Shown piece after piece: positions 1 through 16,704 of a DNA stretch of 20,686 nucleotides. The stretch comes from a virus. Position 1 is the stretch's first letter, and every line of letters starts with the position of its first letter. Under the pieces are notes generated by a model. The model ran no database searches. It worked only from the letters and a program-made list of their open reading frames with translations, and was not told the DNA's origin. Location of the stretch: IMG/VR virus record IMGVR_UViG_3300025122_000205, positions 1 through 20,686 of that record, one strand, 5' to 3'. Position numbers and translations under genes: made by a program.

Positions 1-3000
1 CAGCATACCCCTGAGAAAATAGCTGGTAAGGAGCCCCTGTTATTAACTCAGACTCAGGAAATTTACCATTAAAATCATACCCCATACTACACCTCGGGAA
101 CGACCCGATTGATTGTTCTGGATTAAAATACCACCCTGCACCATTCCTAGGGAAGCCTAAAAATTTAGCTTTAGGGTGAGGAGAGACATATATCCTGAAA
201 GGTCCCATATTTTCGGGGTCTGTTTTCCCAACATATCCATAGGCTGCTCCTGGGTTTGCTCCCAAACCAAAGGAGTCTAATATACTTAGAGAAGAAGTAT
301 TTGGGGTAGAAGAGGGAGCCCCAAAAAGAATGTCGGGGGTTGTCCCAGAACACCACATAGCACTAGGCCCATAATAAGCAGCACTAGCATCTTGAGGATG
401 AACGGATGCCCCTACTGGACCTTGGTCACTTCCTACGGATAAGTAAGAAGCATGTAATTCTGAATTATCAGCGATATTCCAAATACGCAAGTGATCACAG
501 CCAGGACCAGACGCATTATAAACTGGTCCTGAAGTATTGGTCCAACCAGTAGGGAACCATACATTCTGCGCCTCTACATGACTACCTCCGACTGCCCTCA
601 CACAGAACCCGCCCCAAGAAAGGCTCGACACACCAACTCCTGTATCTGTCCAATTCCAAGGAAGTGGTGTTAACGGTAATGTATCCGTAACGTTGGCAAT
701 ATTGGTGGGATACTTAGCTTGGGGCAGCAATCCAGTATATACTGAATAATCTAGATAAGGATTAGGATAAAATTGAAGGTAGCCAGAAGAACAGTAGGCT
801 GAGGTATTATATCCGTCACTTTCGTTACCCGTAGGATAATCTGGATTCGTTAAATACTTAGAGTTCCATCGAGCATGATAGTCTCCCATGTCCTTCATAC
901 TTATAGTAGAGTTTCTATTAGCTACCAGACAAGCCCGTGTAGCATGTAGTCTAACTTGTGTCTGATTAGCTGCGGTCGCCAAAGCCCACCCACTGGCATC
1001 TATAATACCATCCTTAAGATGAGGTCCAAATGAGATCTTAGAATTATCCTCAGCTAAAGCATCCACGCCAGCTTGGCAAATAGTAGTGGGTCCTGCAACA
1101 TAAATATGAGAATTATTTCCTGCATATAAAGCAGCTATTTTCTGTTGCTTTGACCAAAGCTCTGGACCTACCACTAAAGTAGCTTTAGTTCCATGACCTT
1201 GAAGTTCTAAATGACTGCCATTTGTAACCCTAAAAGCTGCACCTTTAATAGCTCCATCAGTAAGATAAGTACCTGCATCCCCATTTGCTGTAAGGAGGAT
1301 TGCTTGGGTAGCTACTGAATTCATATAAGATCCGTTATCAACTACTACCCCTGGTAAGGTTTGTTTATCTCCCTCAGAACGCTGTTCAATCCCATGGTTA
1401 CCACTGAATTGAAGAATCTCATAGTTAGTAGACATCGCACTAGCTGCATAGGTGGGAATAAATTCAGATGAGTTAAGTAACACATGTTGTCCATTATTAG
1501 TAAACTCATTTACTGGATAGAATGGGCCACCAGCAGAATCATACCCTATGAGATCTCCATTCTTATTATAATTAACGATAGATCCATTAGCCAAGATCCC
1601 ATATTCTTGATTGTGATCTACAGAAGATTGAGCTACTTTATATGTGCTATTTTCTAGCTTCATTCCCACCGTATTTTGGAAGGATGCCACCCTATATCCT
1701 GTTTCAATTAAAGAGTTTTTGGCTTTTATCCCACAAGTTACATTAAAGAAAGTTTGTAAGACAATAGTTTGTGCTCCATAAGTATTGTCTGTAATAACTC
1801 CCGCTAAATTAGTAGCATTAGAGGTTCCTCCCTTGCAATTAGGAGGAGTTACTAATTGTGAATTTTCAAGTTCAATCCCGATCATGTTTCTGTAAAAACT
1901 AAACGGAGAATCAATAGGAAGACCCTTTAGCATGTTTGTAGATGCACTTAAAGTAATATTAGAATTAATAGCCCGAAGTCCCGCAGTAGGATTGGAAGTT
2001 ACTTTTTCACTTAATGTAGCCCCTCCATTTTGTAATTCATAATTGTGGAAAGCTATAAATCCTCTGTTTAAAATAACATTAGAATTAACAGCTTGTAGTC
2101 CTGCGTTCTTACAGCGAGCAGCGGTACAATTTTCGATAACCACATCAGAATTTTGAATATCAAATCCGACATTTGTGCGTTGTGAGGGACTTCCTGTGGT
2201 GAGGTCAGCTTGGTTTCCTCCATCTACACAGAAGCCTCTAATATAAATTCTACCCGTACAATCTTTAACAGATACCCCACTCAAGTCATTAGCATATACT
2301 AACGCAGGAGCACGGGCTGTAGCAGCCGATTGAATATCTTGCCTCACTACTAATGAATCATCAGCTAGATTCGTCACAACTACGTCTGAACTTGCTGAAT
2401 TATCAGCATAATCATTAACAGTAAAAGTATTGGCAGTACCCGTTAAGAAGGGATCAACATTTACGACATCTAAAAATCTTGATGAGATAGTAACAGTTCG
2501 TGGGGATGCAGCAGCCGCCTTACTCCATTCAGGGGTTTGCACGAAAGCTCTAGTATAGTAATTCCACCATAGTGAAGCTCCATTCGCATTACTCTGCCAT
2601 ACTGTATCGCTTACCCCTAAGGAAGAAGATTCCGTCATCGTAGTACTTAAGTCTATTGAAAGAAATGTTTCGATGGAGCTTCCCTCAGAGAGCGCGCCAT
2701 ATGCCGTAGCCACGTTACTTGATGGTGACGTACTGCTGCCACATATAGCTTTAGCAAATCCTCTATTTATAATCTCTAATCCCGCTGTCGATCCTTCAAA
2801 GTCTATATTTTCTAAATGAAGACCTCCTAAGGGTCCACTGGTAGCCACTTCGACAATGATTGGAAACCTGATTGTATTGGGTAAAGCATCTACAACTGAA
2901 GAAAGAGTTCCAAATACTTTCTTATTATCAATACCGCAATCGGACACCGTGAGCATAATCCCATCTACAGCAGAAGTGGGATACCCAGCCATCTCATGCA

Positions 3001-3157
3001 AGAAATCATCACGATCTTCTAGATCGTAAATAGGAAGGTTATCTTGTTCCCAGTTATAGAAAGAACTAGAATCAAACTTATAAACAGGATCAACCCAGTT
3101 GTTAATCAACTGTGCTGTTCCAGAAGCTAGATATAAATCATATTTTAAAAATGCCAT
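1..3157 (-). CDS. Giant right-handed beta-helix virion protein, likely tail/baseplate receptor-binding appendage (partial, 3' end outside window)
   Basis: The frame is open without a stop from ATG at 3157 down to base 1, giving 1052 codons and a missing C terminus. The start follows one base after the TAA of the upstream gene (TAA-C-ATG). Residues 1-75 look like a compact docking domain containing NWEQDNLPIYDLEDRDD (35-51). Residues 81-133 hold a conserved-looking strand-rich segment (VFGTLSSVVDALP, then GGLHLENIDFEG). From about 310 to 710 there is a ladder of short rungs with recurring Asn-Ser turns followed by alternating hydrophobics: IQNSDVVIENC, VNSNVILNRG, INSNITLSA, LENSQLV, LENSTYKV, NNSHIYVAG and DNSKISFG. 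This is the signature of a parallel beta-helix. More rungs occur near 850-907 (VGGSHVEAQN, ADNSELHAS). Phage proteins of this fold are commonly fibres, tailspikes or depolymerases. I see no identifiable catalytic site. The position right after the baseplate genes fits a host-contact role, which is inference. Confidence 0.85.
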   Translation of the reverse strand, partial: MAFLKYDLYLASGTAQLINNWVDPVYKFDSSSFYNWEQDNLPIYDLEDRDDFLHEMAGYPTSAVDGIMLTVSDCGIDNKKVFGTLSSVVDALPNTIRFPIIVEVATSGPLGGLHLENIDFEGSTAGLEIINRGFAKAICGSSTSPSSNVATAYGALSEGSSIETFLSIDLSTTMTESSSLGVSDTVWQSNANGASLWWNYYTRAFVQTPEWSKAAAASPRTVTISSRFLDVVNVDPFLTGTANTFTVNDYADNSASSDVVVTNLADDSLVVRQDIQSAATARAPALVYANDLSGVSVKDCTGRIYIRGFCVDGGNQADLTTGSPSQRTNVGFDIQNSDVVIENCTAARCKNAGLQAVNSNVILNRGFIAFHNYELQNGGATLSEKVTSNPTAGLRAINSNITLSASTNMLKGLPIDSPFSFYRNMIGIELENSQLVTPPNCKGGTSNATNLAGVITDNTYGAQTIVLQTFFNVTCGIKAKNSLIETGYRVASFQNTVGMKLENSTYKVAQSSVDHNQEYGILANGSIVNYNKNGDLIGYDSAGGPFYPVNEFTNNGQHVLLNSSEFIPTYAASAMSTNYEILQFSGNHGIEQRSEGDKQTLPGVVVDNGSYMNSVATQAILLTANGDAGTYLTDGAIKGAAFRVTNGSHLELQGHGTKATLVVGPELWSKQQKIAALYAGNNSHIYVAGPTTICQAGVDALAEDNSKISFGPHLKDGIIDASGWALATAANQTQVRLHATRACLVANRNSTISMKDMGDYHARWNSKYLTNPDYPTGNESDGYNTSAYCSSGYLQFYPNPYLDYSVYTGLLPQAKYPTNIANVTDTLPLTPLPWNWTDTGVGVSSLSWGGFCVRAVGGSHVEAQNVWFPTGWTNTSGPVYNASGPGCDHLRIWNIADNSELHASYLSVGSDQGPVGASVHPQDASAAYYGPSAMWCSGTTPDILFGAPSSTPNTSSLSILDSFGLGANPGAAYGYVGKTDPENMGPFRIYVSPHPKAKFLGFPRNGAGWYFNPEQSIGSFPRCSMGYDFNGKFPESELITGAPYQLFSQGYA

Positions 3158-3158
3158 G

Positions 3159-3800
3159 TTAGAAATTCAACGTCCATTTAAAAACTAATGCAAAATCATC
3201 TGTCTTATTAATATTTACAAAAGGTCTGTAAGCTACTAAATTAGACCTCTTAGTACCTACTCCTAAAGGGTTCTCCATAAACAGTCCAACTTCATTTACA
3301 ATTTGTCCGTTACACGTATTACGATCTACGTATAGTATATAGGTTACCGAATTAAGATCCACTCGTTTAATACTATTCTCAGAGATTACTGCAAATACCC
3401 AATTATCTCCCCCATTAGTAACTGCTTTCGAAGTCCCATTATATTCCATTAAATCATGGACTACGAGGGGAAGAGTAGAGTCGCCCCCAGGATTGTAATG
3501 AGTAAGGACATACGCCCCAGCAGCCCCACCAGGGTCCTGACCTAATGCTGAAACCAGTGTAGTTTCAGATACTCCATAAGAATCAATTATAGTATTCCCC
3601 GATACACCTAATTGGAAATATCTGATTTGAAAATTAGTTACAGTTATGGCTCCTGATCCTGCATATAGAAGACCTAATCCCACTCCCATTCCCGAAGTGA
3701 TGACATTATGATCATCAAATACCTGCTCTTCAGTTCCATCTGCATATACTTTATAAATTTCCAAATGACCTGAAGGATCTAAATTATCATGTTGTTTCAT
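3159..3800 (-). CDS. Baseplate/tail appendage paralogue C (smallest of three)
   Basis: This 213-aa protein is related to the next two genes upstream. Its N-terminal module (11-39) reads GHLEIYKVYADGTEEQVF followed by HNVITSGMG, matching a shared pattern G-x-(L/V)-x-(I/V)-x-x-(I/V)-x-x-DG-(T/S), then a four- to six-residue hydrophobic strand, N-(M/L/V)-(I/V)-x-x-G-x-G. The C terminus has VNEVGLFMENPLG and ends in an aromatic strand VAYRPF...ALVFKWTLNF. The family resembles short structural proteins found next to baseplate genes of large myophages; their exact role is unknown to me. I prefer ATG at 3800 because GGAAG lies five bases before it, whereas an in-frame ATG at 3812 (four extra residues) has no purine-rich site upstream. 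The gene ends in TAA one base before the beta-helix gene. It probably forms a baseplate-periphery or fibre-adaptor part; that is inference. Confidence 0.75.
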   Translation of the reverse strand: MKQHDNLDPSGHLEIYKVYADGTEEQVFDDHNVITSGMGVGLGLLYAGSGAITVTNFQIRYFQLGVSGNTIIDSYGVSETTLVSALGQDPGGAAGAYVLTHYNPGGDSTLPLVVHDLMEYNGTSKAVTNGGDNWVFAVISENSIKRVDLNSVTYILYVDRNTCNGQIVNEVGLFMENPLGVGTKRSNLVAYRPFVNINKTDDFALVFKWTLNF

Positions 3801-3805
3801 TTTAT

Positions 3806-3810
3806 CTTCC
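3806..3810 (-). promoter_or_regulatory. Shine-Dalgarno-like GGAAG deciding the start of paralogue C
   Basis: On the minus strand the sequence reads ATGGAAGATAAAATG. The GGAAG sits five bases before the second ATG (3800) and overlaps the first ATG (3812). No purine-rich run precedes the first ATG, whose upstream sequence is AACTATAATAG. This favours initiation at 3800, but the motif is short and the evidence is modest. Confidence 0.4.
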
Positions 3811-3825
3811 ATCTATTATAGTTAT

Positions 3826-4572
3826 CTAGGGGTCACCCAAAGGGCCACTTATTATCCGTAAAGTATCATCAGGTACATCCCCCACCAAGCCACCCCCATC
3901 CCCGAATACCTCATCTACATTAGTAGTTAACCCTAAGAAACCAATTCTCCAATGCATAACTAAAGAGAATGCACTACTCTTTGGCACAGGGGTAAATGAT
4001 TTATAAGCAATTAATAATGGGGAATCCCCTCTAAATCCCCTCGGGTTTTTAGAAAAGAGTCCTATCTCACTAATATTTTTATCGTTAGCTGTTTTTTCAT
4101 CTAAAACAATTACTGCTTCAAATGAATCTAAGTATACTCTACTTATTTTAGTTGGAGGAACTTCCCCAAAATATTGATTAGTACCGGAAAATACAACCGC
4201 TGATAAAGCCCCACTAGTTCCATACAACTCTCCGTAAGTAAGGCCATCATCTACTGTAGAAGCATAGAATCCTCTATACCTTTCATCAAGAATAAGATCT
4301 GTATCATCTCCGTATTCCGACCAGGATAGAGGAGAACTTAGTTGATAAAAATAAGCCGAAGTGTCAGAAATAAACTTAAGAGTATCTACACTACTGGTTC
4401 CTACTTGAAAATAATAAGGTACAAAGTCTTCATGATATACCGCTCCGCGACCTTCTAATATATCAATTAAAGAGGACCCTAACCCCTTCGTAATCATATT
4501 AGATTTATCTAAGACGATTTCTTTAGTGCCATCCTTGTATATCTTACAAATTGTTAAATGTCCATTAACCAT
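3826..4572 (-). CDS. Baseplate/tail appendage paralogue B
   Basis: This 248-aa protein shares the two-module layout of its neighbours. The N-terminal module is at 4-33 (GHLTICKIYKDGTKEIVL then SNMITKGLG). The C-terminal module has ISEIGLFSKNPRGFRG followed by LLIAYKSFTPVPKS and FSLVMHWRIGFLG. The C-terminal pattern (E-(V/I)-GLF ... aY(K/R)-x-F ... W-x-(I/L)-x-F) is the same in paralogue C and is recognisable but diverged in paralogue A. A glycine/aspartate-rich tail of about 35 residues follows the last strand. The start overlaps the end of paralogue A by 8 bp, and the upstream sequence TTTAGGGCTAAAC gives a weak ribosome-binding site. The stop is TAG. I infer a virion structural protein of the baseplate periphery. 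No enzymatic motif is visible. Confidence 0.75.
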   Translation of the reverse strand: MVNGHLTICKIYKDGTKEIVLDKSNMITKGLGSSLIDILEGRGAVYHEDFVPYYFQVGTSSVDTLKFISDTSAYFYQLSSPLSWSEYGDDTDLILDERYRGFYASTVDDGLTYGELYGTSGALSAVVFSGTNQYFGEVPPTKISRVYLDSFEAVIVLDEKTANDKNISEIGLFSKNPRGFRGDSPLLIAYKSFTPVPKSSAFSLVMHWRIGFLGLTTNVDEVFGDGGGLVGDVPDDTLRIISGPLGDP

Positions 4573-5818
4573 GTTTAGCCCTAAAATCTATTGTCCAACT
4601 TAATCTAAGACGTAAGTAATCCGATACACCAAGTACATTTATCCCCCCTAACATTACATGCCCAGAAAGAGGTCGCGTAATTCCTGGGCCTGTTACTGCA
4701 TCATCTTTAACCTGAGCTAAGTTTTCTGTAAAGGTTTTCTTAGCAAATAATCTATATTCTATTGGGCTTACTCCAGTGGTTAGATTGTGACGAGTCAATG
4801 TTGGACCCATAGTAAAAGGGGGTTCCTGGTTCTTCAGGCTCTCTTTACAGTTCACACTCCATAAGCCTATCTGATGTAGCCCCCCATATAAATTCATAGC
4901 CCATAAATCCCCACCCCAAATTGTAGTGTTTATGGTTACTCTGGGATCTATTACCAGATCAACTGCATTTACCCCTGCAACTGCACCAGAGACAGCTACC
5001 ATCCCTATATTATTAGGGGACACCCAATCAGGACCATAAGTTGTTTCAATAAATCCTCGTAAATCCATTTGAGAATAATAATTATAATAACTAAAAACAT
5101 TAACAGGAGCGGTTCCACCCAGACCCAAAGCTGCTTGAGATTCAAAATTGGGACTGGGCTGAGTCATATGTAAATAAGGATCAGCTTGCCAATCTCCTTC
5201 ATATGAGCTTACAAGTATCCCACTTGTTTGATGATGTGTAGTTAGAGTCTGTCCTGATAATGCATAAGTTCCTTGGAAATAACTGGAGGCATCACCTGAA
5301 GCAAAATTAGGTCTATTTTCAAAATGTCCATAACTTACAGTACCATCCCCACTCACAATCGAATACGCAGTACTAGCATCTTCAAGTTTTTTATTTAAAG
5401 GATCAGGGTAAGAGGGTAATTGATAAGGAGGAGTGTAAGTAGAAGGTGTAGGATCTGTGACCGTACCGCTTAACCACCGAGGACGTATAATACGATCTGT
5501 AGATATTTGATTAATGTAAGAATTTACATCTGCACTAACTCCGTCACATAAATCATCTTCGTTATAATAAATTCCTCCAGATGGGAAAAAATAAGCATTC
5601 GCTGAGAAGGAAGCAGCAGCGGGACCAAAAGAAATAGCTCCCCATCTCCAGTTAGATGTGTCCATCACCTTAGGGCTTATCCCTAGGGTGCATGAGGGGG
5701 TCGTAAGCATGTCTACAATCGACTCCCCAGCCCCATCCACTACGAGATTAGGCTCCTCTAAGAGGAGCGTCTCAGAGCCATCTGAGTGGATTGCATATAC
5801 TTCTACTTTACCCCTCAT
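4565..5818 (-). CDS. Baseplate/tail appendage paralogue A (largest of three, expanded middle)
   Basis: This 417-aa protein begins with the shared N-terminal module (3-32: GKVEVYAIHSDGSETLLL then PNLVVDGAG). It ends in a diverged copy of the C-terminal module: IGLW, then RLFAKKTF, then LRLRLSWTIDF near the end. Between them is about 250 residues rich in Ser, Tyr, Gly, Pro and Asn with no motif I recognise, which is why it is nearly twice the length of its paralogues. The long Tyr/Ser/Gly middle would suit a beta-rich surface-exposed insertion; that is inference. The start codon lies inside the last codons of the gp7-like gene (11-bp overlap), preceded by GGGATAG, so translation is probably coupled. 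The stop overlaps paralogue B. Alternative roles include a fibre-attachment adaptor or a short fibre. Confidence 0.75.
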   Translation of the reverse strand: MRGKVEVYAIHSDGSETLLLEEPNLVVDGAGESIVDMLTTPSCTLGISPKVMDTSNWRWGAISFGPAAASFSANAYFFPSGGIYYNEDDLCDGVSADVNSYINQISTDRIIRPRWLSGTVTDPTPSTYTPPYQLPSYPDPLNKKLEDASTAYSIVSGDGTVSYGHFENRPNFASGDASSYFQGTYALSGQTLTTHHQTSGILVSSYEGDWQADPYLHMTQPSPNFESQAALGLGGTAPVNVFSYYNYYSQMDLRGFIETTYGPDWVSPNNIGMVAVSGAVAGVNAVDLVIDPRVTINTTIWGGDLWAMNLYGGLHQIGLWSVNCKESLKNQEPPFTMGPTLTRHNLTTGVSPIEYRLFAKKTFTENLAQVKDDAVTGPGITRPLSGHVMLGGINVLGVSDYLRLRLSWTIDFRAKHG

Positions 5819-8800
5819 GAATTTCTATCCCCGATACAAAGTTCCCGAATTTATTACTAAGAGTGAGGGCACCCTGCTCTCCCCACACTTCATTAGTATA
5901 CATTTCTTTATTCGATCTGTAGTTCATACGACTGCCGCCTGAAACTTCCATAGTTCCTAAGGTGATGGCTGAATTCCTACTTGCAAATCCTGTACTAATA
6001 TCTTTAAAGAATCTAAACACAGATTTTAAATCTTTAGAGTCTAATTGAGCTTCACCATATTTAGTTTTAATAACCGAATTATTATAGTTCGTTAAATCTT
6101 TAATACTTATATCTTCGAAGACTATAAATTTACTCGCATTCTTACTAGACTGAGGAACAAAAAATTCTAAAACATATTTTTGATCAGTCCGATGAACCTT
6201 CCCAAACTCATCTAAATATTTGGCTGTTGGTTTAATAGTTCTATTATTTTCTGTAGTAAATCTAAACGTAAGATCTTGACGAGTTCTTTCTTTAGCATTA
6301 GCAATAGCTTGGGGATTTGTCCCTACTAAGGTAGACTCTATAAGCATAGGTTCCCAACATCTAAAATCATAACTATCTATAATTATTCCTGCCCCCATAG
6401 AAGCCCCTACTCCACTCCCAATTACACTATTTAAACTCTTAGAGTGGAAAGGTTTATAATCAGCTTTAGTACTCACAAGATTAATTCCATTAGCAGAAGA
6501 TAAATCAGCTACCCGTATAGGTTCCCAATTATCTAATAAAATTCCGCACCTATCGTATGCTCCTGCGGGTACATGAGACCACACCTCATCGTTCTCTGGT
6601 TCAGTCCTCACCCATAGCCCTAGCTTTAGCCCCCCTACTTCTGCATTACTTACATCTAAATTATGAGCCTTTACAGTTACCTCATATTCATGATTAGGTT
6701 CTAAAAAGTTTCGAGATTTATTATTATAATTAGAATTATCAATTTTAATTCTAAGACGCGGGAACAAATCGTTATTTGTAGAGCGGTGATATTTAATAAT
6801 TTGATTGTTAATTAAATAACTAGAATAAGCATACTTACTTTGGTCATCTCTACTTAATTTAAATACAGAAAAAATGGGATGAGATCCAAATGTATAAGGT
6901 GCTGACGTATCCACCAATTCTACGGCACTTACAATATTGCTATTACGAAATTCTGGATGAGCAAGGAAAACATCCCCAGCGGTTGAGGCTGCATAAGTTC
7001 CGAGCCCCTCATAATCTCCCTTAACTCCAGATAAACTTAAAACCCCACTCCCTCCATAGTAGGATAAATCTACCTCATAGGTAACCGCACTAGCTGCAAG
7101 ATACCCACTAGTACCTAAGGTAGATCCATCAATATCAAAATTAGAATTATAAATAAGTGGACCAAAAGTGTGGGAGAAAAAGTTTGGAACCCCTAGTAGA
7201 TTATAATTATTAGTTAAGCCATGCCCACTAAAGTAACTACTACTATTATACACATTATATAATTTGTGTACCTTTGAACCAAAAGCAAAATCTTCATAGT
7301 AAGTTAAAGACTCATCTGATGATTCTTGGTTAAGTAAAGAGTTAGCTATAGATGGTACAACATCTATATCTTTCTCATTATACCATGCACTAAAATCAGT
7401 AGGTTGTATCAAAGTACTACTTGTAGGCCAATTAGGATTTATAACTCCAAACTCATCCAAATAACCAGAAACTATCGAACTAGCTTGAAGATATTTTTCT
7501 CTGTTATGGATCTTATTCATTGTATAAATAATTTCCTGTAATTGACCCCTTCTGCCATAAGTATTACAATCCGATGTTGCTACAATCTGTTTTGCTCTAG
7601 AGGCAAACGTGTTACTCACATCATATCCAAATATTGAACTAGGGGATAATAAATTCTGACATATATCCCACACGGCATTTAGATTATCATAATCTATTAA
7701 CTTCCCTATACCCCTCCCCCTAGGGTTTTGGCGTAATGCTACAGATTGAAATTGTAAAGAAGAAGGTATAAAGCCTAAAGGAAGATACCCTATTGAAGAA
7801 GAGTAGTAACTTGGAGATGACATCTCTAAGCTGCCTGGATTATTTCTTCCATTTCTAGTAAAGAATTTAGTTTCTGGTAATAGATTATGATAACTCCTTC
7901 TTCTTAAAGAGTTTCTAGGGACAGAAATAAAATCATCTACGCCAGATGCAAATAACACATCGTTAATATTGTTTACTTGACCGCGTTTAAATCGTTTAGG
8001 GGGTATCCCATTTGCCACAGCTATAGATTCCATATCCACTGCACATATTGCATAGTTAGTAGTAATGTCACTAGAACCTAGATCTGTAAAGTTGGGTCTC
8101 CACTCTCTACAATCTTTATCTGCTATAGCATCCATAGTATCTGCTACATCAGATACAGAAACTAATATTTTAGGGATAGCGTGGGCTGGAATAACTTGAT
8201 CCAAAACCCTCATAACTTTTTGGATTCCATACTTGCTTGTAGACCGTAAAGCTTGCCCATCCCAATCAAAAGAACTAGCCTCAAAGCTCATGATAAAGTG
8301 AGACGATTTACCGTTCCACAAACTTAGAAGTTTTATGGGATCTACTAAACGTTGTTTAGTAGAGTCTCTTAAAATTGTAGTGTAATTTGGTGGGTACTGC
8401 TTAGTTTTAGTGAACAAAAGAAAACTATTAATAACCGTATCTGCGTCCAGACTTGCAGTAAGATTGTTCCTACAGAAAGTTACAACTTGTTTAGCAAAAG
8501 CTTTATCTACTCCGTAACATATTAAATAATACTCAATACGCTCTAATAAATTTTCTGTAATTTTAGTAGCTGTATAATACTGTCTATTCTCATACGGAGG
8601 AACTAAGTTAACCTTGTCTCTATAGAAGAACATAAAAGTAGGATCATACTTTAATTGCAAAAATTCAGAATCAGGTCCTGCTCTAGACCCCGTTTTGAAT
8701 ACGGGCCACTGAGATTCAAGAAAGATGGGAGGAGGTGGAACTCGTATGTGGCATGGACTAGGAACATTCGGAGGAGGTCTGAATAATCCTCTTTGAACAT

Positions 8801-10415
8801 TGCATCGTGGTATAGGAGTATTTCCCTTCGATGGAGGAAGAATATGGTAAGGACCTGTATAAGCTTCTCCTGTACTGGAAGATACTAATTCTAGTTGAGG
8901 GAATGGTTTACCCCCTAAATAAAAACTATTAGGAAATTCTCGGGTTAAATCGAATAGAATTTTATCTATAGTATATTTTATATTAGTTTCCATGCTGCTC
9001 GCAGAGTAATGAGGAACACCAAACTGACGAGCTAACTCAGGAGTGTAAACATCAAAATCCACAAATGCAGGAGAACTTGTAGCAAGAGCATAGTACATTA
9101 AATCAGGAATATAAGATTCCCACAACTCTTTTATAGTATCACTAGTGGTAACATTAAAGACCCCTGTAGAAAATAAAGTATCCATTAAAATTTGAATGGA
9201 CCTTTTAGTTCCCTTCATCTTATAAATTTCTACGGCATTTCTTAATTGTACTCTCCACTTGTCTACATCCGCCCCAATAAATTTCCAACCAATTAATTCT
9301 GCTAAGAGTTCTAAAAATTCATCAGGGCATTTTCCTATGTCATACAAAACATCTATTTCATTATGCTCTGTGATCCTATCCGCAATAGAGAAAGACATAG
9401 CCTCCAGAAAACGAGTTAAAGGTCCCGCTTCTTCTGTAGTAGTAATTAATGATCCATCTTCAGTAGGAGTTGATGTAGAAAGGTAAGTATAGAAAGCATC
9501 CTCTACGGCTGTATCAGGACTATCCAGATAGTGGGGAGAGTATACTACCTTATTTAATGTTTTAAGACGATCTAGTAATTGGGTGCCACTGGTCCACGTA
9601 ACTGCACTTATATCCACTCCTGAAACATAATTAGTAGGGATAATTTTCTCTGCTATCCCCCAAACTGGTTGATTTTTCCACAGGTATTCCTGATAAATAT
9701 TAATAACATCTTCAAGTACAAGAGATCGCCCCCTCCAAAAAGTATTTGTCATTAAGGTGGCAAGCCCCGCAGAAGGATCAAATCCATCTGTAGGACCTTC
9801 TCTATTAAGGAAATATAGCCACCCTAAATTATTCGCTAAATACTTATAGGTCCCCGAAGAATCATTAGCATAAGCACTAACTGTAAGAGTAGCTAAGTTA
9901 TCAGTCTCATGATAACCTGTAGCTATAGCAGGTATACTAGGTAGGAGAGTTCCACTTACATAGTCTATAAAAGCCTGACTAGTACTGTAATTAGATAATT
10001 TGGTTTTTAGAGGAAATAATATATTACGTTGAAAATCATCAGGCGTAATTTGAGCGGGGTTATAGTGCTTATAAAAATATTTGGCAAAGCCCGAAGGGGT
10101 ATTGATAGCCGAAAGATAATGATCGTAGGTTAAAGAGGAAACAGGGAGGATAGTAGATTGATGTTTATTAGCTAATATATGAGAGTTAATTAATTGATTA
10201 GGATAAGAGATATGAGTTCCACTAGCCGCCACCTCATCTTCAAAATAAAAATCAGGAACTATCTGCCTGATAGCCTCTAAATAATTTCTCTTAAAGTATT
10301 TTTGTGTCTGAGCCCTACTTGCGATATTATCTTTAGCAGACACCACCGCAACTATTTCAGGAGTAACCTGATCTAACTGATTGATCTTAGATGATTTTAT
10401 ATACCTTCTGGACAT
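5808..10415 (-). CDS. Giant gp7/gpI-like baseplate wedge protein with carbohydrate-binding-module-like C-terminal region
   Basis: This 1535-aa protein follows the gp6/J homologue, the standard position of T4 gp7 and P2 gpI. The recognisable core is at about 330-417: LTRFLEAMSFSIADRITE, a run CPDEFLELLAELIGWKF, then WRVQLRNAVEIYKMKGTKRS. That matches the tail-protein-I pattern of an 'LA..lGw' strand-helix followed by 'R.....A...Y..KGT'. It is longer than T4 gp7 (about 1030 aa). A Pro-rich linker lies at about 535-565 (RPPPNVPSPCHIRVPPPP), preceded by YTGPYHI, a phrase seen in many myophage structural proteins. From about 1085 (LIYNSNFDIDG) to 1437 (FIVFEDISIKDL) the strand pattern resembles a family 4/9 carbohydrate-binding module. 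In the contractile-tail model it links the gp6 ring to peripheral fibres. Its ATG overlaps the gp6 stop (TAATG). Confidence 0.82.
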   Translation of the reverse strand: MSRRYIKSSKINQLDQVTPEIVAVVSAKDNIASRAQTQKYFKRNYLEAIRQIVPDFYFEDEVAASGTHISYPNQLINSHILANKHQSTILPVSSLTYDHYLSAINTPSGFAKYFYKHYNPAQITPDDFQRNILFPLKTKLSNYSTSQAFIDYVSGTLLPSIPAIATGYHETDNLATLTVSAYANDSSGTYKYLANNLGWLYFLNREGPTDGFDPSAGLATLMTNTFWRGRSLVLEDVINIYQEYLWKNQPVWGIAEKIIPTNYVSGVDISAVTWTSGTQLLDRLKTLNKVVYSPHYLDSPDTAVEDAFYTYLSTSTPTEDGSLITTTEEAGPLTRFLEAMSFSIADRITEHNEIDVLYDIGKCPDEFLELLAELIGWKFIGADVDKWRVQLRNAVEIYKMKGTKRSIQILMDTLFSTGVFNVTTSDTIKELWESYIPDLMYYALATSSPAFVDFDVYTPELARQFGVPHYSASSMETNIKYTIDKILFDLTREFPNSFYLGGKPFPQLELVSSSTGEAYTGPYHILPPSKGNTPIPRCNVQRGLFRPPPNVPSPCHIRVPPPPIFLESQWPVFKTGSRAGPDSEFLQLKYDPTFMFFYRDKVNLVPPYENRQYYTATKITENLLERIEYYLICYGVDKAFAKQVVTFCRNNLTASLDADTVINSFLLFTKTKQYPPNYTTILRDSTKQRLVDPIKLLSLWNGKSSHFIMSFEASSFDWDGQALRSTSKYGIQKVMRVLDQVIPAHAIPKILVSVSDVADTMDAIADKDCREWRPNFTDLGSSDITTNYAICAVDMESIAVANGIPPKRFKRGQVNNINDVLFASGVDDFISVPRNSLRRRSYHNLLPETKFFTRNGRNNPGSLEMSSPSYYSSSIGYLPLGFIPSSLQFQSVALRQNPRGRGIGKLIDYDNLNAVWDICQNLLSPSSIFGYDVSNTFASRAKQIVATSDCNTYGRRGQLQEIIYTMNKIHNREKYLQASSIVSGYLDEFGVINPNWPTSSTLIQPTDFSAWYNEKDIDVVPSIANSLLNQESSDESLTYYEDFAFGSKVHKLYNVYNSSSYFSGHGLTNNYNLLGVPNFFSHTFGPLIYNSNFDIDGSTLGTSGYLAASAVTYEVDLSYYGGSGVLSLSGVKGDYEGLGTYAASTAGDVFLAHPEFRNSNIVSAVELVDTSAPYTFGSHPIFSVFKLSRDDQSKYAYSSYLINNQIIKYHRSTNNDLFPRLRIKIDNSNYNNKSRNFLEPNHEYEVTVKAHNLDVSNAEVGGLKLGLWVRTEPENDEVWSHVPAGAYDRCGILLDNWEPIRVADLSSANGINLVSTKADYKPFHSKSLNSVIGSGVGASMGAGIIIDSYDFRCWEPMLIESTLVGTNPQAIANAKERTRQDLTFRFTTENNRTIKPTAKYLDEFGKVHRTDQKYVLEFFVPQSSKNASKFIVFEDISIKDLTNYNNSVIKTKYGEAQLDSKDLKSVFRFFKDISTGFASRNSAITLGTMEVSGGSRMNYRSNKEMYTNEVWGEQGALTLSNKFGNFVSGIEIHEG
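8341..8363 (-). repeat. Perfect 10-bp inverted repeat with 3-base loop inside the gp7-like gene
   Basis: The sequence reads TCTACTAAAC-AAC-GTTTAGTAGA on the minus strand and would form a 10-bp hairpin in the mRNA. It lies inside codons for STKQRLVD near residue 688 of the gp7-like protein. There is no U-run after it, so it is not a typical intrinsic terminator. It may be coincidental or may affect mRNA stability or ribosome pausing. Confidence 0.5.
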
Positions 10416-12025
10416 TACACTAACACAGTATTAATAGTAAAGTTGTTTAATTGAATAATCTCATTAAAATCTACCGTTGTAACCTCAGGCATATTATCCA
10501 CGGTAGAATACCTTACACTAGGTAACCTGAAAATTTCTCTATTTAACTCCGATGCCACAAAAGGCTTTCCAAAATCAGCACTATCAATACTGAAATGATT
10601 GAGAATAACTTGAGATACTTCTTGGTAAATCTGGGTTTCAATCGCTTCGGATTCTTTATCAATTCGTATAGTCACTACTAGATCTAAAGTTCTAACGAGC
10701 CCATCTACGACAGCTACTTCATCAGTCAACATCTTTTTAGGCTCAATTTCTGCAAGTAATTGTTCTTTAAATGTAGGGGAAGCTTTTTGAAGCCTTAAAT
10801 CATCTGCCTTCTCTAACGTGTACAAATCAATAACGTTAGCTGATGAAAAAGCATCCCTAGTAACAGCAGTAGTTTTTCCTATAGTTCCTTGAGAGCTTCT
10901 AAAAGTATTGCCTATAGCGATATAGTCCTCTAAAGTTACTACTCTATCTTGTCTCTTAAAAGTATAGGGAGCATATTTTTTAGCATGTTGGGATGTTTCA
11001 GCTTCCGAGCCCCCTGTAGCATCAGAAATATTTTCAGTAGTCATAGTGAGAGCATCTGGGGTACCTCCCGCAGTCTCAACTGTAGTTTCCACATTGATCA
11101 TTTCTTTCCCAATATTTCCTCTACTCCCCCCTCCTACTCTATACACTACTGTAAATGTTGATCCTGCTGGAGGAGATATACCTAAAGCATTATCACCAAA
11201 TAACACGGTGGCTGCATAATTATCATCGTATATAACTTGGAAAATTCTATCGTTTAAGCCTGACGCAGAAAATAGCCTATCAACTTGGGTATAAGATCCG
11301 TTCGCAGGATCCGCAGAATTTCCTGTATCAATATATACTTGGACACTTCCTTCAATAATGGGGGAATCCGTCAAAGAGACTCGCTTGTTCCCTTCTAATG
11401 AATCAAAATTTCCTTTCTGCACACTTAAAGATCCCTCTAACATAGCCACATTCGTAAAGACAGAACTTACTGCGTTATCTGCTTCATCGCCTGAAAGGTC
11501 AAAAGATGCATTAACATTTTTAATATCTTGAATAAGATTATTTTCGATTTTATATAACGTATAATTTACTGGGGCTCCATCTTCCCGCGAGGTAACAGCA
11601 AAAACTCTATTACTGGGCGTATAAGTTAGAGGAAAATTAGCTACTACAGGATCAGTAGTACAAGTTAATTTAGCAGAAGCCGCTGCTCCTAAGGGACCCC
11701 GCATATCTACCCCTACCAATTCTAAAAGTTTTCTTAGGTTAGAACGAACTTTCACTGTTCTTAAATAATTTTCATTCGCCAGCATATCCCCCTTTAAAGA
11801 TAAAACGGACCCCATGTATGCTACTATTTCAATTAGCATTACTCCTAAATCAGATTCTGAAAAATTTTGATAATCTAATGGATAAACTGCTTTAATATAT
11901 TCGATTAAGTCTTGTCGAATAGAATAAAAATCATTTCCCGCATAGTCGATATACTGCTGTTTTTTCTGGTCAGGAATTGCCCCTAACTTCATAAAATCTG
12001 TATTTGTTGTTCCTGAAAATGCCAT
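10415..12025 (-). CDS. Baseplate wedge protein, gp6/gpJ family (Baseplate_J-like)
   Basis: This 536-aa protein matches the Baseplate J / T4 gp6 pattern. The N-terminal helical part has DFYSIRQDLIEYIKAVYP (32-49), FSESDLGVMLIEIVAYMGSV (55-74) and YLRTVKVRSNLRKLLELVGV (88-107), the region that in this family carries the 'D.G..lie..A' signature. A central strand-rich part has FGDNALGISPPAGSTF and VVYRVGGGSRGNIG (276-306), which corresponds to the 'FGdg..G..P..G..i...Yr.GgG..GNv' signature. In myophages two copies of this protein plus one gp7/gpI-like subunit form the core of each wedge and close the iris ring around the hub. The length is shorter than T4 gp6 (660 aa). The start overlaps the stop of the gp25-like gene (TAATG), and the end overlaps the gp7-like start in the same way, so the three wedge genes are tightly coupled. 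Confidence 0.92.
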   Translation of the reverse strand: MAFSGTTNTDFMKLGAIPDQKKQQYIDYAGNDFYSIRQDLIEYIKAVYPLDYQNFSESDLGVMLIEIVAYMGSVLSLKGDMLANENYLRTVKVRSNLRKLLELVGVDMRGPLGAAASAKLTCTTDPVVANFPLTYTPSNRVFAVTSREDGAPVNYTLYKIENNLIQDIKNVNASFDLSGDEADNAVSSVFTNVAMLEGSLSVQKGNFDSLEGNKRVSLTDSPIIEGSVQVYIDTGNSADPANGSYTQVDRLFSASGLNDRIFQVIYDDNYAATVLFGDNALGISPPAGSTFTVVYRVGGGSRGNIGKEMINVETTVETAGGTPDALTMTTENISDATGGSEAETSQHAKKYAPYTFKRQDRVVTLEDYIAIGNTFRSSQGTIGKTTAVTRDAFSSANVIDLYTLEKADDLRLQKASPTFKEQLLAEIEPKKMLTDEVAVVDGLVRTLDLVVTIRIDKESEAIETQIYQEVSQVILNHFSIDSADFGKPFVASELNREIFRLPSVRYSTVDNMPEVTTVDFNEIIQLNNFTINTVLV

Positions 12026-12522
12026 TATGTTATACTAACCTCTACATCAAAAATATCTAACGACTCATCTAATAATTGAAGAGTGAGCTTTACTATAAGC
12101 TGATGGTCTCGAAACCTATCCTCAAAAATAGCTAGAGTAATAACCTTAACTATACTAAAGTATTTTTTTAAAGTTTGAAGAATATCGTTTCTCATTAAGA
12201 AAAAAGTTGTTTCATCCATGGGTTCAAATAAATATCTATTCAAAGACATTCCATACCCAGGTAACATTACTCTTTCTCCTTTTTCACAAAGAAAAAGCTG
12301 TCTTAAATTATTTCTAATAAGATCTACCCCATATGATTTACTAAAATACCCCCCTGGTCCTTTGTTATCTTGTAGCACCGCAGGGTTTCCTGTTACTTGT
12401 TTAAAAGAACCGACGAGAGGATAGGCAAAACCGCTATTCTTCTTATATTTCGAAGCGGTAGCCCGTTTAACACTAATGCTAACTGGGGCTCCGTAAGAAT
12501 TATGAGTAGTAGTAATAGCCAT
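12025..12522 (-). CDS. Baseplate wedge / sheath initiator, gp25/gpW family
   Basis: This 165-aa protein carries the hallmark of the GPW/gp25 family: RNNLRQLFLCEKGERVMLP (70-88) followed by GYGMSLNRYLFEPMDE (89-104), equivalent to the family pattern 'i..iL.t..GeR...p.fG..l...lFep'. A helix and two strands follow (ILQTLKKYFSIVKVITLAIF, 114-133; HQLIVKLTLQLLDES, 140-154). Proteins of this family cap the wedge and template polymerisation of the contractile sheath; homologues occur in type VI secretion (TssE). The usual Glu-Pro-Arg motif before the second strand is absent and is replaced by roughly Phe-Ser-Ile. An N-terminal extension of about 60 residues, Lys- and Gly-rich, precedes the core; T4 gp25 is 132 aa. 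Start and stop codons overlap both neighbours by one base (TAATG). Confidence 0.93.
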   Translation of the reverse strand: MAITTTHNSYGAPVSISVKRATASKYKKNSGFAYPLVGSFKQVTGNPAVLQDNKGPGGYFSKSYGVDLIRNNLRQLFLCEKGERVMLPGYGMSLNRYLFEPMDETTFFLMRNDILQTLKKYFSIVKVITLAIFEDRFRDHQLIVKLTLQLLDESLDIFDVEVSIT

Positions 12523-15509
12523 TAGATTAAAATATTTTCAAAAAAGCCTTGTTGAGCTTTATAGTTAGTTAAAATTTCACCAGAAGAAAGGGCTCTATTA
12601 TATAGTTTTAGGCTTCCAAGGTATCCATATAAACCACTTTTTTTGCCTCCCCATTTTCCTCCCATAAAGTTCATGCCTTCTATGGATCCGTCACCAGACT
12701 TATAAAACATACCATCTGTGTAACCTCCCCCAATTATCCAAGGGGTTAAAGCCATCCTAGAATTTCCCCCTTGAAGCTGTGGTCCATCCCAATACCAAAA
12801 ATCTGTTTGCCCCACTGAATTAGGTGGGAACAAAGGTCCGTTCATAGGAAGGCCACTAAATACAGAATTATAACTAAAGGAATCAGGAGTTATCATGCCT
12901 GGAATTTGAGGAGGCCCTGTATCTCCAAATGTCTCCGTTATAGTAGAGGAAGCTAAAAGACTTCCATTTAAATAAATGTGTGTTAACTTAGAAACATAAT
13001 CTACCGTAACAGTAGCTAACATAAAGTTCGCGGAACAATCATCAAAACTACTCCCATTAAGAGCCGTAGTAGATGTATCTACTTGTATTCCATAGTATCC
13101 ACTCGGGGGTACAATATCCTGAGGACATAGAATTGGATTAGCTGAAGCAGCTAAGAATGTTACTCCACTCGTATTAATAGATTGAGTAGGACTCATATGA
13201 AATACAAGACCCTTTGTGAGGTCATTATCCGCAGGATTATTACTGGGGGCAGTTCCGCTGGTCATGCGACAGTCCCTACTAAATCCCATCAATAAACCCT
13301 TTACTGTCTTAGTGCCTTGTTGGGGGCCAGCAACCCAGTAAGGATCTACTGAGGAGAAGGTTCCTCCACGATTCTCACAACCCACTACTACTCTATGTAA
13401 TGACGATAAGGCACTGTCAGCATTCCATCCCGCTCCCGCACTGTCATGAAGGTCTGGAACATGTGTCCAAAATTCAAAAGTAGCTCCTGACCTTGAATAT
13501 AACAAACTTTCAATGTCATCCCAACCACTCTGAATTCTCCCATATCCGTATGGTCTATAGGGGGAATGCAAATATTCTAAATTAGCAGCATGATTTAGAA
13601 CTTTAGGATTACCGTCTCCACTTACTCCAGAAAAGAAATTACAAACTCCTCTAAAGTATGGGATTCCAATCCCCGAAGGGAACATCGAAGGAATAGAAGA
13701 GCCCACTAATTGGGCTGGCTTATCACTAACAGCACTTGTGTTACAATTAATAACAAAATATTCACTAGAATTGGGAGCCACTAAATCAGCATCTAAGAAA
13801 TTATAAATACTCACTAATCCTGAAGTAGCAATCTGATTATTTAAAGATAATGTAGTACCACTTGTTCCAGAAACATGAGGATCCGAAGAAATAATACCCC
13901 CTACTCCTACTTCAGGAACCACTAACTCATTAACTGTAAATGCATTTTGTGGAATATCACTCTTAATAAATGTTGGACAGAGAGGTAATACTATACCAGA
14001 TGCATCTCCTGGATGAAATAATAATGCTTCTTGCTTCCCTCTTTCAATAGCTAATTTATCCCCATCCAATCCTTCAAAATTATTAATAGGAATATTTCCC
14101 TTTTGCGCTGGGTTAGTGGGAGGGGAAAGTAAAACGTGTACTTGAATTTGTTTCTTTCTACGATTAATTTTCGAATCATGAGTTGCAATAGCCGCATATA
14201 AAATTTGCCTCTGATTAGTTACAAGAGCACTATCTTCAGCATACCCACTTAGCTGAAGATCTGTAACATAAGTTGATAAATCATAAAGCTCTCTATTACG
14301 TTGATCAATTACAACTTGAAGAAAATGATCTTCCTCATAAAAAGTTTGCATAAAGGGGCTTTCGTCTATCTGGGTTATATCAAATGCAGTATTAGCCCAT
14401 TGGTTAAAGGTATTCCATGTTACAATCTCACCCTTTCCACCTATGTTAGGGTTATATTCATGCATCCATTTCACCATGTTATCTGGTACACCAGTTCCTG
14501 GTATAGGGTTTCCAGATGAATCATAATAAATAGCACTTACAATATTTGTAATACACCCTGAATAGTCCAGCCCTCCTCCATATGAATCATAATAAATTCC
14601 TGTTTTAGAGAATAAAAATTGTCCCTTTTTAGAAACAGGAGGCCCCATTCCACTAGGAGCCTGTGTTATTTCTTTATAAGATTCTACTACAGGAACAATG
14701 GGATCACCATTAGCTGCCGCATCAGCATCTATTAGATTAAAAGAAGTTAGCCCAGATAAAGCTTGATCTAATGTTTGCCCAAACCACGGACTGTTAGGGT
14801 CTTCATTTACCATATTTTTCCAAAATACGGGTTCGGGGTTATTAGCAGGATCCTTTTGTCTCGCTTGGAGAATTGACCTAATATTATTTTGTTGCGCGTT
14901 TGCTTCATTAATGAAGCCAGTAGCCGTCTCAAGCATATCCTTATTTTGGTCAAATACTAAACTAGCAGCTTCGCTTGGGGGAGGTGGTTTAAAGATGGAG
15001 CCTCCTGCGGTAAAGCCTACCATCTTATCCGCGACTGCTGATGGGCCTTTTTGGAGAGCACTAAAGGATTTCATTTTATCAATACAATTTTTGATATCAT
15101 TAAATTGTTCTACTATCTTCTCTCCCATCACCCAAGCTTTAGCCCCAAAACCTAAAATAGTGCCGAGTCCAAAGAGATTATTAACGTCATCTAAAGCACT
15201 CCTCTCCACCCCCAGTTTCGATGTTGCTGATACAAAAACAAACTTACCTGTAGTGGTATCATATTCAACAATACCCGTATCCAAAAATATCTTTCGAGTG
15301 ATATCTTTAAATACAGAATCAGCAAGAGCTTTTCCTTCCTCAATACTACCATTCATTCCACCTAAAACGGGGGAGGGGAAAGCAGCTAATGCATTTTTAG
15401 CCATACGCATCATACATTGAGGTACTCCAAATTGAGTGCCCATCGCATCCAAAACCGGAGTAGGAGAAGTAGTTATAATCCTTGCTGCTTTAGAATAATC
15501 AAATGCCAT
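12522..15509 (-). CDS. Large baseplate-associated structural protein with C-terminal LamG/concanavalin-like domain
   Basis: This 995-aa protein has no single family I can name for its first 660 residues. The N-terminal 170 residues are mostly helical with Gly/Ala-rich hydrophobic stretches (LFGLGTILGFGAKAWVM). They are followed by Gln/Asn-rich helix (NEANAQQNNIRSILQARQ). From about 665 to 990 there is a LamG-like jelly roll: ATFEFWTHVPDL, then HIYLNGSLLASS, and near the end GYLGSLKLYNRALSSGEILTN. That is the classic LamG_3 ending 'G.i..lriYnraLs..Ei..ny'. Such domains bind glycans in many phage structural proteins. The gene lies between the spike and the gp25-like gene, inside the baseplate operon, so I infer a baseplate component that exposes a lectin domain. 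The start at 15509 is supported by AAGG eight bases upstream. Confidence 0.78.
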   Translation of the reverse strand: MAFDYSKAARIITTSPTPVLDAMGTQFGVPQCMMRMAKNALAAFPSPVLGGMNGSIEEGKALADSVFKDITRKIFLDTGIVEYDTTTGKFVFVSATSKLGVERSALDDVNNLFGLGTILGFGAKAWVMGEKIVEQFNDIKNCIDKMKSFSALQKGPSAVADKMVGFTAGGSIFKPPPPSEAASLVFDQNKDMLETATGFINEANAQQNNIRSILQARQKDPANNPEPVFWKNMVNEDPNSPWFGQTLDQALSGLTSFNLIDADAAANGDPIVPVVESYKEITQAPSGMGPPVSKKGQFLFSKTGIYYDSYGGGLDYSGCITNIVSAIYYDSSGNPIPGTGVPDNMVKWMHEYNPNIGGKGEIVTWNTFNQWANTAFDITQIDESPFMQTFYEEDHFLQVVIDQRNRELYDLSTYVTDLQLSGYAEDSALVTNQRQILYAAIATHDSKINRRKKQIQVHVLLSPPTNPAQKGNIPINNFEGLDGDKLAIERGKQEALLFHPGDASGIVLPLCPTFIKSDIPQNAFTVNELVVPEVGVGGIISSDPHVSGTSGTTLSLNNQIATSGLVSIYNFLDADLVAPNSSEYFVINCNTSAVSDKPAQLVGSSIPSMFPSGIGIPYFRGVCNFFSGVSGDGNPKVLNHAANLEYLHSPYRPYGYGRIQSGWDDIESLLYSRSGATFEFWTHVPDLHDSAGAGWNADSALSSLHRVVVGCENRGGTFSSVDPYWVAGPQQGTKTVKGLLMGFSRDCRMTSGTAPSNNPADNDLTKGLVFHMSPTQSINTSGVTFLAASANPILCPQDIVPPSGYYGIQVDTSTTALNGSSFDDCSANFMLATVTVDYVSKLTHIYLNGSLLASSTITETFGDTGPPQIPGMITPDSFSYNSVFSGLPMNGPLFPPNSVGQTDFWYWDGPQLQGGNSRMALTPWIIGGGYTDGMFYKSGDGSIEGMNFMGGKWGGKKSGLYGYLGSLKLYNRALSSGEILTNYKAQQGFFENILI

Positions 15510-15519
15510 TATTTATACC

Positions 15520-16704
15520 TTACGCTGTGTACCCAGGCCCCTCTCCATTTAAGTGTACTTGAGCCCCATCTACTGTGATATTTCCAGTAGCATTAATATC
15601 TACTATAGGAGCATTAATTTCTACTTCAGTATCACTTTGTAGGGTAACTTTACTTTTAGCTATTATATCTACTGTTCCCCCACTATCTACAATAATTTTA
15701 GAGTCTGCGCCTGGAGATACAATACGGATCACAGAATCAGCCTCTAACGCTTCCAAGGTTATGTTATTATGATGTGAAAGTAAATGGATACATCCCGTAG
15801 TTTCATCTCCAAATGTGGAAATTCTCTGAGTTGCTTTAGCTCCTCCTGTAGAAGGGGGTCCGAGTTTCCCTCCTGGTCCATATGACTTAGCTCCTGTAGA
15901 TTTGTTTTCAATTTCAATATTTAATCCATCTTCTATCCATATATGAAATCTATTAAATAAGGAATATAGATTAAAGGGACCATGAGTTCTCCAATGAACC
16001 TCCCCTTCGGCAAAGGGACTCTGCTCACTCATTCCTGTACTCCAAATCATATAATCTTTCCCGCGATGTTCATTAGTCATCACGATTCCATCTACCGTAG
16101 GGCTATCAATTAAAGCCAATCTTTTTCCTGAACCACTCTGAAGACTTACTTTATAATCTTGATATGGATCAGCACCCTTATTCCCCCTATACCTATTTGA
16201 GATAGTCATAGAATCAGACCTAAGACTGGTGAGTCCCATCATTTCAGGGACCGTACCTTTAGCATCATACATTCCTTGAAAAATATCAGGAAATGGGGTT
16301 TGATTTTCGGGAAGAACTTCAGGAAAAATTCCTTCTGGCGTAGGGGGACCAGCGGCTCCAGGAACTGTTTTATCAATATACCCCGTATGAACAGGAGGAG
16401 GAGTATCGGATTCTACCGACATTAATCTATTAGCTCCAGGTGATACCCCTATTAAAGATCCTATATAATAATAACCTTGAAGATCATCCGATCCAGCAGT
16501 ATCATCATATAAACATAATGCCTGAGATCCTTTTTCAGGAATGGCTATAAAAGCCGACTGGTTGCTTCCATAAGGAGATACATAGCTCACAGTTTCTTCT
16601 AGGGGCTCATTATCTTTAGCAGCTTTAAAAGCTACTTTAAATTTACCCGTCTGATTAATATCAGCCTTGCTGGTTACAGTTCCTATTTTGAGTCGTAAAG
16701 TCAT
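15520..16704 (-). CDS. Central baseplate spike, gp5/gpV-like (no lysozyme domain)
   Basis: This 394-aa protein starts with an OB-fold-like segment (about 1-90: LKIGTVTSK, FKVAFKA, YVSPYGSNQSAFIAIPEKG, YYYIGSLIG) typical of gp5/gpV/VgrG spikes. It ends in a strand-repeat needle. Residues 304-394 repeat short hydrophobic alternations: SKIIVDSGGTVDIIA, SKVTLQSDTEVEINAPI, VDINATGNITVDGAQVHLNG. The final GEGPGYTA is probably the tip. T4 gp5 (575 aa) carries a lysozyme domain between these parts. Here the middle (about 90-300) instead holds Pro/Gly-rich linker and strands, and I see no lysozyme catalytic pattern. A His-rich patch HLLSHHNN opens the needle. The ATG overlaps the hub stop (ATGA, 4 bp), consistent with equimolar trimers of hub and spike. 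A separate PAAR tip gene was not found. Confidence 0.88.
   Translation of the reverse strand: MTLRLKIGTVTSKADINQTGKFKVAFKAAKDNEPLEETVSYVSPYGSNQSAFIAIPEKGSQALCLYDDTAGSDDLQGYYYIGSLIGVSPGANRLMSVESDTPPPVHTGYIDKTVPGAAGPPTPEGIFPEVLPENQTPFPDIFQGMYDAKGTVPEMMGLTSLRSDSMTISNRYRGNKGADPYQDYKVSLQSGSGKRLALIDSPTVDGIVMTNEHRGKDYMIWSTGMSEQSPFAEGEVHWRTHGPFNLYSLFNRFHIWIEDGLNIEIENKSTGAKSYGPGGKLGPPSTGGAKATQRISTFGDETTGCIHLLSHHNNITLEALEADSVIRIVSPGADSKIIVDSGGTVDIIAKSKVTLQSDTEVEINAPIVDINATGNITVDGAQVHLNGEGPGYTA

Follow-up and report, generated by a model that had tools for sequence, protein, structure and literature searches.

A predicted beta-helix protein encoded next to the baseplate genes of an uncultivated phage lineage is a candidate tail appendage

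The receptor-binding protein (RBP) gp15 of Staphylococcus phage Andhra is a trimeric protein in which a docking loop of 36–38 residues is followed by a short coiled coil and a 534-residue β-helix (PMC9710869). Its docking loop is conserved between the Andhra and P68 RBPs, which differ in fold, and the Andhra protein has been likened to the N-terminal two-thirds of phi29 gp12 (PMC9710869). Here we analysed a 20,686-nucleotide stretch of viral DNA (the window), which is the whole of IMG/VR record IMGVR_UViG_3300025122_000205. Its genes lie on the minus strand; the listed plus-strand frames are short and overlap minus-strand genes. An earlier note, made from the sequence alone, had reported a stop-free but incomplete frame of at least 1052 residues, and this frame is indeed present on the minus strand at 2–3157, beginning with an ATG at 3157 and remaining open for 1052 codons until the contig stops at base 2. 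The features discussed below are as follows.

2..3157, minus strand: putative β-helix appendage gene, truncated at its 3′ end; 1052 codons remain and about 100 are missing, judged from complete relatives
2972..3157, minus strand: N-terminal putative docking loop and short helix, residues 1–62, the family's most conserved block: KFDSSSFYNWEQDNLPIYDL
2321..2707, minus strand: variable inserted domain, residues ~151–279; mean column conservation 0.32
854..2320, minus strand: predicted β-helix part I with Asn-Ser ladder, residues ~280–768; model strands, 13 conserved Ser columns and VIA alignments to right-handed β-helices
614..853, minus strand: Tyr/Pro/Asn-rich loop, residues ~769–848; model confidence low in mid-loop
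419..613, minus strand: predicted β-helix part II, residues ~849–913; model and conservation
2..418, minus strand: start of the C-terminal domain, residues ~914–1052; complete relatives run on to the conserved tail GFKSxNxFDLxRDN
3159..3812, minus strand: 217-residue neighbour matching phrog_5417, whose function is unknown; also adjacent on the upstream side in relatives
5808..10415, minus strand: gpI-like protein of 1535 residues with a Tail_P2_I domain
10415..12025, minus strand: gp6-like baseplate wedge protein (phrog_219, E 1.4e-34)
12025..12522, minus strand: gp25 (Pfam, E 1.5e-9)
12522..15509, minus strand: 995-residue product, flanked by the spike and gp25 genes and weakly LamG-like at its C-terminus
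15520..16704, minus strand: spike/DUF2345 protein (weak match), in the baseplate block

The earlier note had looked to the full contig for the missing 3′ end. No further sequence of this contig exists, because the record is only 20,686 bases long and ends at the window edge, and the length was taken from complete relatives instead. These have closed genes of 1035–1308 residues, or up to 1311 as an open frame, and the window protein is therefore short by roughly 100 C-terminal residues. The description of the protein as giant holds only in a relative sense, as the largest phage-spike fold matches are of similar size. More than 300 IMG/VR contigs encode relatives (316 related stretches in a sequence scan, 331 in a profile scan), most of them 31–60% identical over nearly the full length, and a tail of the type GFKSxNxFDLxRDN terminates most of the complete ones. 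Searches of Pfam, PHROGs, NCBIfam and PDB sequences with the protein and its relatives yielded few matches, all weak, and no relative. The window protein matched no Pfam family, and neither it nor the family profile matched a PDB sequence; three of 36 relatives weakly matched PF13229 Beta_helix (best E 0.0033). Likewise, tblastn against 50,697 phage records returned no relative, even with a divergent member as query at E up to 1. LR756511, a 595-kb metagenomic phage that is nearest by gp6 and terminase, was considered as a source of a relative and rejected, giving no match to the family profile. The lineage consists of widespread, uncultivated tailed phages; the fold is familiar, and the protein family is absent from all databases searched.

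To obtain a structural view of the family, we modelled a complete relative, L003 (1165 residues, 60% identical to the window protein over the best segment), as a monomer with AlphaFold2 using 61 sequences (pLDDT 81.9, pTM 0.85). Strands begin at residue 67, and the ladder occupies about 280–760 and 845–910. The longest stretches of low confidence are the docking loop (20–45) and a loop at 807–836, with a helix at 43–56. VIA-align placed the Andhra RBP gp15 first (8egr_B, Z 23.6, 465 residues, 3.8 Å); this alignment spans L003 residues 62–1131 at 15% identity. Alginate lyases, epimerases, tailspikes and pectate lyases followed at Z 15–21, most of the structural matches barely testing the part of L003 beyond residue 704. 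Foldseek matches overlapped this set, and Bacillus phage pre-neck appendage proteins occur in the viral fold list. The two-part parallel β-helix proposed in the earlier note is thus supported by the monomer model and the fold matches, which predict a right-handed helix in two stretches parted by a loop. The fold is generic, and Z values separate Andhra gp15 from the enzymes only modestly.

The repeat pattern read from the window protein is also borne out. Five strict units of the form (hydrophobic)-x-N-[SGT]-x-(hydrophobic)-x-(hydrophobic) lie at residues 334–903, a number reached by one of 2000 composition-preserving shuffles (mean 0.87). NS dipeptides are weak evidence alone (14, against 8.2 in shuffles, 57 of 2000 of which had as many). 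Across 61 aligned relatives, 15 columns are each 92–100% Ser, spaced by 22, 40, 34, 45, 22, 22, 36, 48, 39, 35, 23, 44, 113 and 41 residues, and several of these spacings equal one 22-residue rung or about two. These Ser columns are the strong evidence for the ladder; the window protein's own strict rungs are few but above chance. Helix I has 63 positions with conservation of at least 90%; Gly, Ser or Asn occupies 37 of them, the composition expected of β-helix turns. The Tyr/Pro/Asn-rich separator noted previously is present at residues ~769–848 and is among the least conserved parts. Family-wide, the variable regions are about 151–275 and 761–844, and near relatives diverge above all in the inserted domain.

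The genomic setting supports the earlier placement of the protein in a tail appendage, since the gene closes a conserved baseplate block with spike, gp25, gp6 and gpI genes. In loci L002–L081 that are long enough, the order spike, LamG-like, gp25, gp6, gpI, paralogous small proteins, β-helix gene is kept, the part upstream of the LamG-like gene falling beyond the fetched loci. So that the β-helix gene would not select its own loci, we also collected loci using gp6 relatives as seeds. Of these, 33 extend 8 kb or more past gp6, and 30 of the 33 carry the family; in the three contigs that seemed to lack it, the intervening genes are long and the contig ends before the expected position. Two neighbouring features deserve mention. 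Three consecutive genes at 3159–5818 (minus strand; 217, 248 and 417 residues) encode proteins with a similar N-terminal block, G-x-(L/V)-x-(I/V)...DG(T/S)...N-(L/V/M)-(I/V); two of them match phrog_5417, and the 248-residue protein matches the same place as the 217-residue one in distant relatives. The gpI-like protein reaches about 2700 residues in a relative (L272), while Tail_P2_I covers only residues 337–414 of it here.

We compared the rate of divergence of these proteins. The β-helix protein stood at 34% in the far set (gp25 35%, gpI 31%) and at 56% in the near set (gp25 54%, gpI 58%); its pace is close to that of gp25 and gpI and exceeds that of gp6. It therefore behaves as a core virion part, not as a readily swapped host-range tip. 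One pair of phages is nearly identical, with a genome median of 96%, and the β-helix protein reaches 94% identity between them. Most of its differences fall into two blocks, residues 301–400 and 901–1250, where synonymous and nonsynonymous changes cluster together. We take this pattern to reflect mosaic exchange, not selection acting on a variable tip.

Conservation within the protein is highest in its N-terminal block, KFDTSSFYNWEQDNxPxYDLEER. As the first family set was found via patterns that included FYNWEQDN, the apparent invariance of this motif was biased, which the gp6-seeded set corrects: the block occurs in all 29 distinct members, with FYNWEQDN exact in 23 and variants such as FYNWEEDN in six. 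The next gene downstream starts with a related block, KFTDPIRYFKANDPYYxEVDNIPLKQLxEN, in every relative readable there. Of 80 loci, 74 contain two copies of the motif and the remaining six lie on truncated contigs; a profile comparison related the two blocks with P 81% (E 1.2e-5). Neither this shared loop nor the conserved C-terminal tail figured in the earlier note, both being partly or wholly outside the window. In the models of L003 and of the next-gene protein alike, the block forms a low-confidence loop leading into a helix. The latter model is of low confidence overall (pLDDT 60.7), and a fold search of the PDB gave no match at E ≤ 0.001; it therefore does not place the pair in a known baseplate. 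The similarity of the two blocks suggests, on the simplest reading, that both appendages may share a baseplate socket or attachment site.

The motif is also carried by gp199 of the cultured Salmonella phage Arash (P 94%, E 1.6e-7) and by proteins annotated as hypothetical in Vibrio phages D69, D148 and D181. It is N-terminal in the Arash structural protein and the D69 hypothetical protein (L111 12025–12957 and L112 11968–12888). We tentatively propose, as a possibility of rather low probability, a two-component host-contact layer, in which the β-helix protein and its unrelated downstream neighbour would plug into their sockets via one docking loop; given its presence in the Arash and Vibrio phage proteins, the loop would then be a general attachment code for appendages. 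As a short recognisable tag, it could guide searches of unannotated phage genomes for appendage proteins.

We put at about 55% the probability that the protein is a β-helix appendage (spike or short fibre) anchored to the baseplate of a contractile-tail phage, probably trimeric and contacting the host. The frame, the family, the gene order, the link between the two docking loops and a relative's predicted fold come from computation. Fold and locus are well supported; trimerization, outward projection and host contact or receptor binding are what we infer. According to this model, the extended docking loop and short helix of residues 1–62 would pin the protein to the baseplate, and the right-handed β-helix shaft, with at least 15 Ser-marked rungs and one flexible-loop break, would point outward, its distal end closed by the conserved C-terminal domain and tail. 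The trimer would most likely make a conserved contact with the host surface during adsorption, while the downstream neighbour, via its related loop, may occupy an equivalent baseplate site. The predicted fold, the locus, the anchoring layout and the variable regions 151–275 and 761–844 are consistent with an appendage that contacts the host. A simple distal receptor tip does not agree with the position of the most variable domain, which is close to the N-terminus and so presumably on the baseplate side.

The earlier note had offered a receptor-binding fibre or a polysaccharide-degrading spike; the tail appendage stands, but no family-wide acidic pair clearly marks a groove. In the enzymatic alternative, a tailspike depolymerase or lyase would cleave host surface polysaccharide in the β-helix groove before injection, as the many polysaccharide lyases, hydrolases and depolymerase tailspikes among the fold neighbours would lead one to expect, together with a small group of conserved charged residues, R303, D308, E337, R360 and Y368 (L003 numbering), on the first rungs. 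However, D308 (90%) and E337 (98%) are the only acidic residues of helix I conserved at 90% or more, the rest being mostly Gly, Ser or Asn. That the alignment shows no family-wide acidic set counts against a depolymerase, while subfamily-specific sites may exist. Depolymerases are usually exchanged rapidly, and the lineage-wide retention of the gene, with its gp25-like pace of divergence, argues against a readily exchanged host-range enzyme. We regard this reading as unlikely.

Retention throughout the lineage and wedge-like conservation would also suit a purely structural baseplate element without host contact, at the wedge periphery or as an inter-fibre clamp, with receptor binding left to the long gpI-like or the paralogous upstream proteins. 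The extreme C-terminus is also conserved, as if both ends were held. Yet the size, β-helix and N-terminal loop layout resemble receptor-binding appendages, and regions 151–275 and 761–844 vary as exposed surfaces would, so that we give a structural role the same low probability as the enzyme. Bacterial adhesins, some of which are among the fold neighbours, are β-helical too, and the gene might in principle encode a secreted adhesin or other non-virion protein lying beside baseplate genes by chance. This is very improbable: its position in the block is fixed in relatives, its docking loop is common to its neighbour, and bacterial genomes gave no match except one phage contig in a single-cell assembly.

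That contig, the sole match in the genome collection, is a 130.6-kb sequence in the Prochlorococcus single-cell assembly AG-409-P03 (L084 / G001:C3 1–130604); of its 166 predicted proteins, 144 have matches, in rotated order, on a 129.9-kb IMG/VR contig (G002). Prochlorococcus is thus a host lead for one relative, and a co-sorted virion would look alike. The cyanophage mark psbA was not found in the nine viral records searched and is present only on another contig of the assembly. Separately, in L104–L105 (G004:C1 2310–30176), several proteins start like sugar-nucleotide epimerases or dehydratases (e.g., VLVTGGTGMIG), as though this phage encoded a set of proteins for modifying glycans.

Under the preferred reading of a baseplate-anchored appendage, the analysis assigns a fold and a testable virion position to a large core protein that the family databases searched do not cover and that belongs to a widespread, uncultivated phage lineage. 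Among known systems, the tailspikes and depolymerases of Sf6, Dettilon (gp208) and CBA120 (TSP2) and the Klebsiella K1 lyase are likewise right-handed parallel β-helix tail appendages; here, in contrast, no family-wide catalytic acidic set was found, and the gene is retained lineage-wide rather than readily exchanged. The phi29 pre-neck appendage gp12, likened here via the description in the Andhra paper, is also a β-helix appendage that differs in virion type and anchoring. Andhra gp15 (8egr) itself has 609 residues, no detectable sequence similarity to the β-helix protein and a short-tailed virion, in which it attaches to portal and tail stem, whereas the gene described here sits in a baseplate block with gp25 and gp6. 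The resemblance nevertheless extends over the whole layout: Andhra gp15 gave the highest Z and the longest alignment in the VIA list, the predicted L003 model has an N-terminal docking loop, a short helix and a single long β-helix in the same order, and in both systems the docking loop is common to otherwise unrelated proteins, the Andhra and P68 RBPs in one and the products of neighbouring genes in the other.
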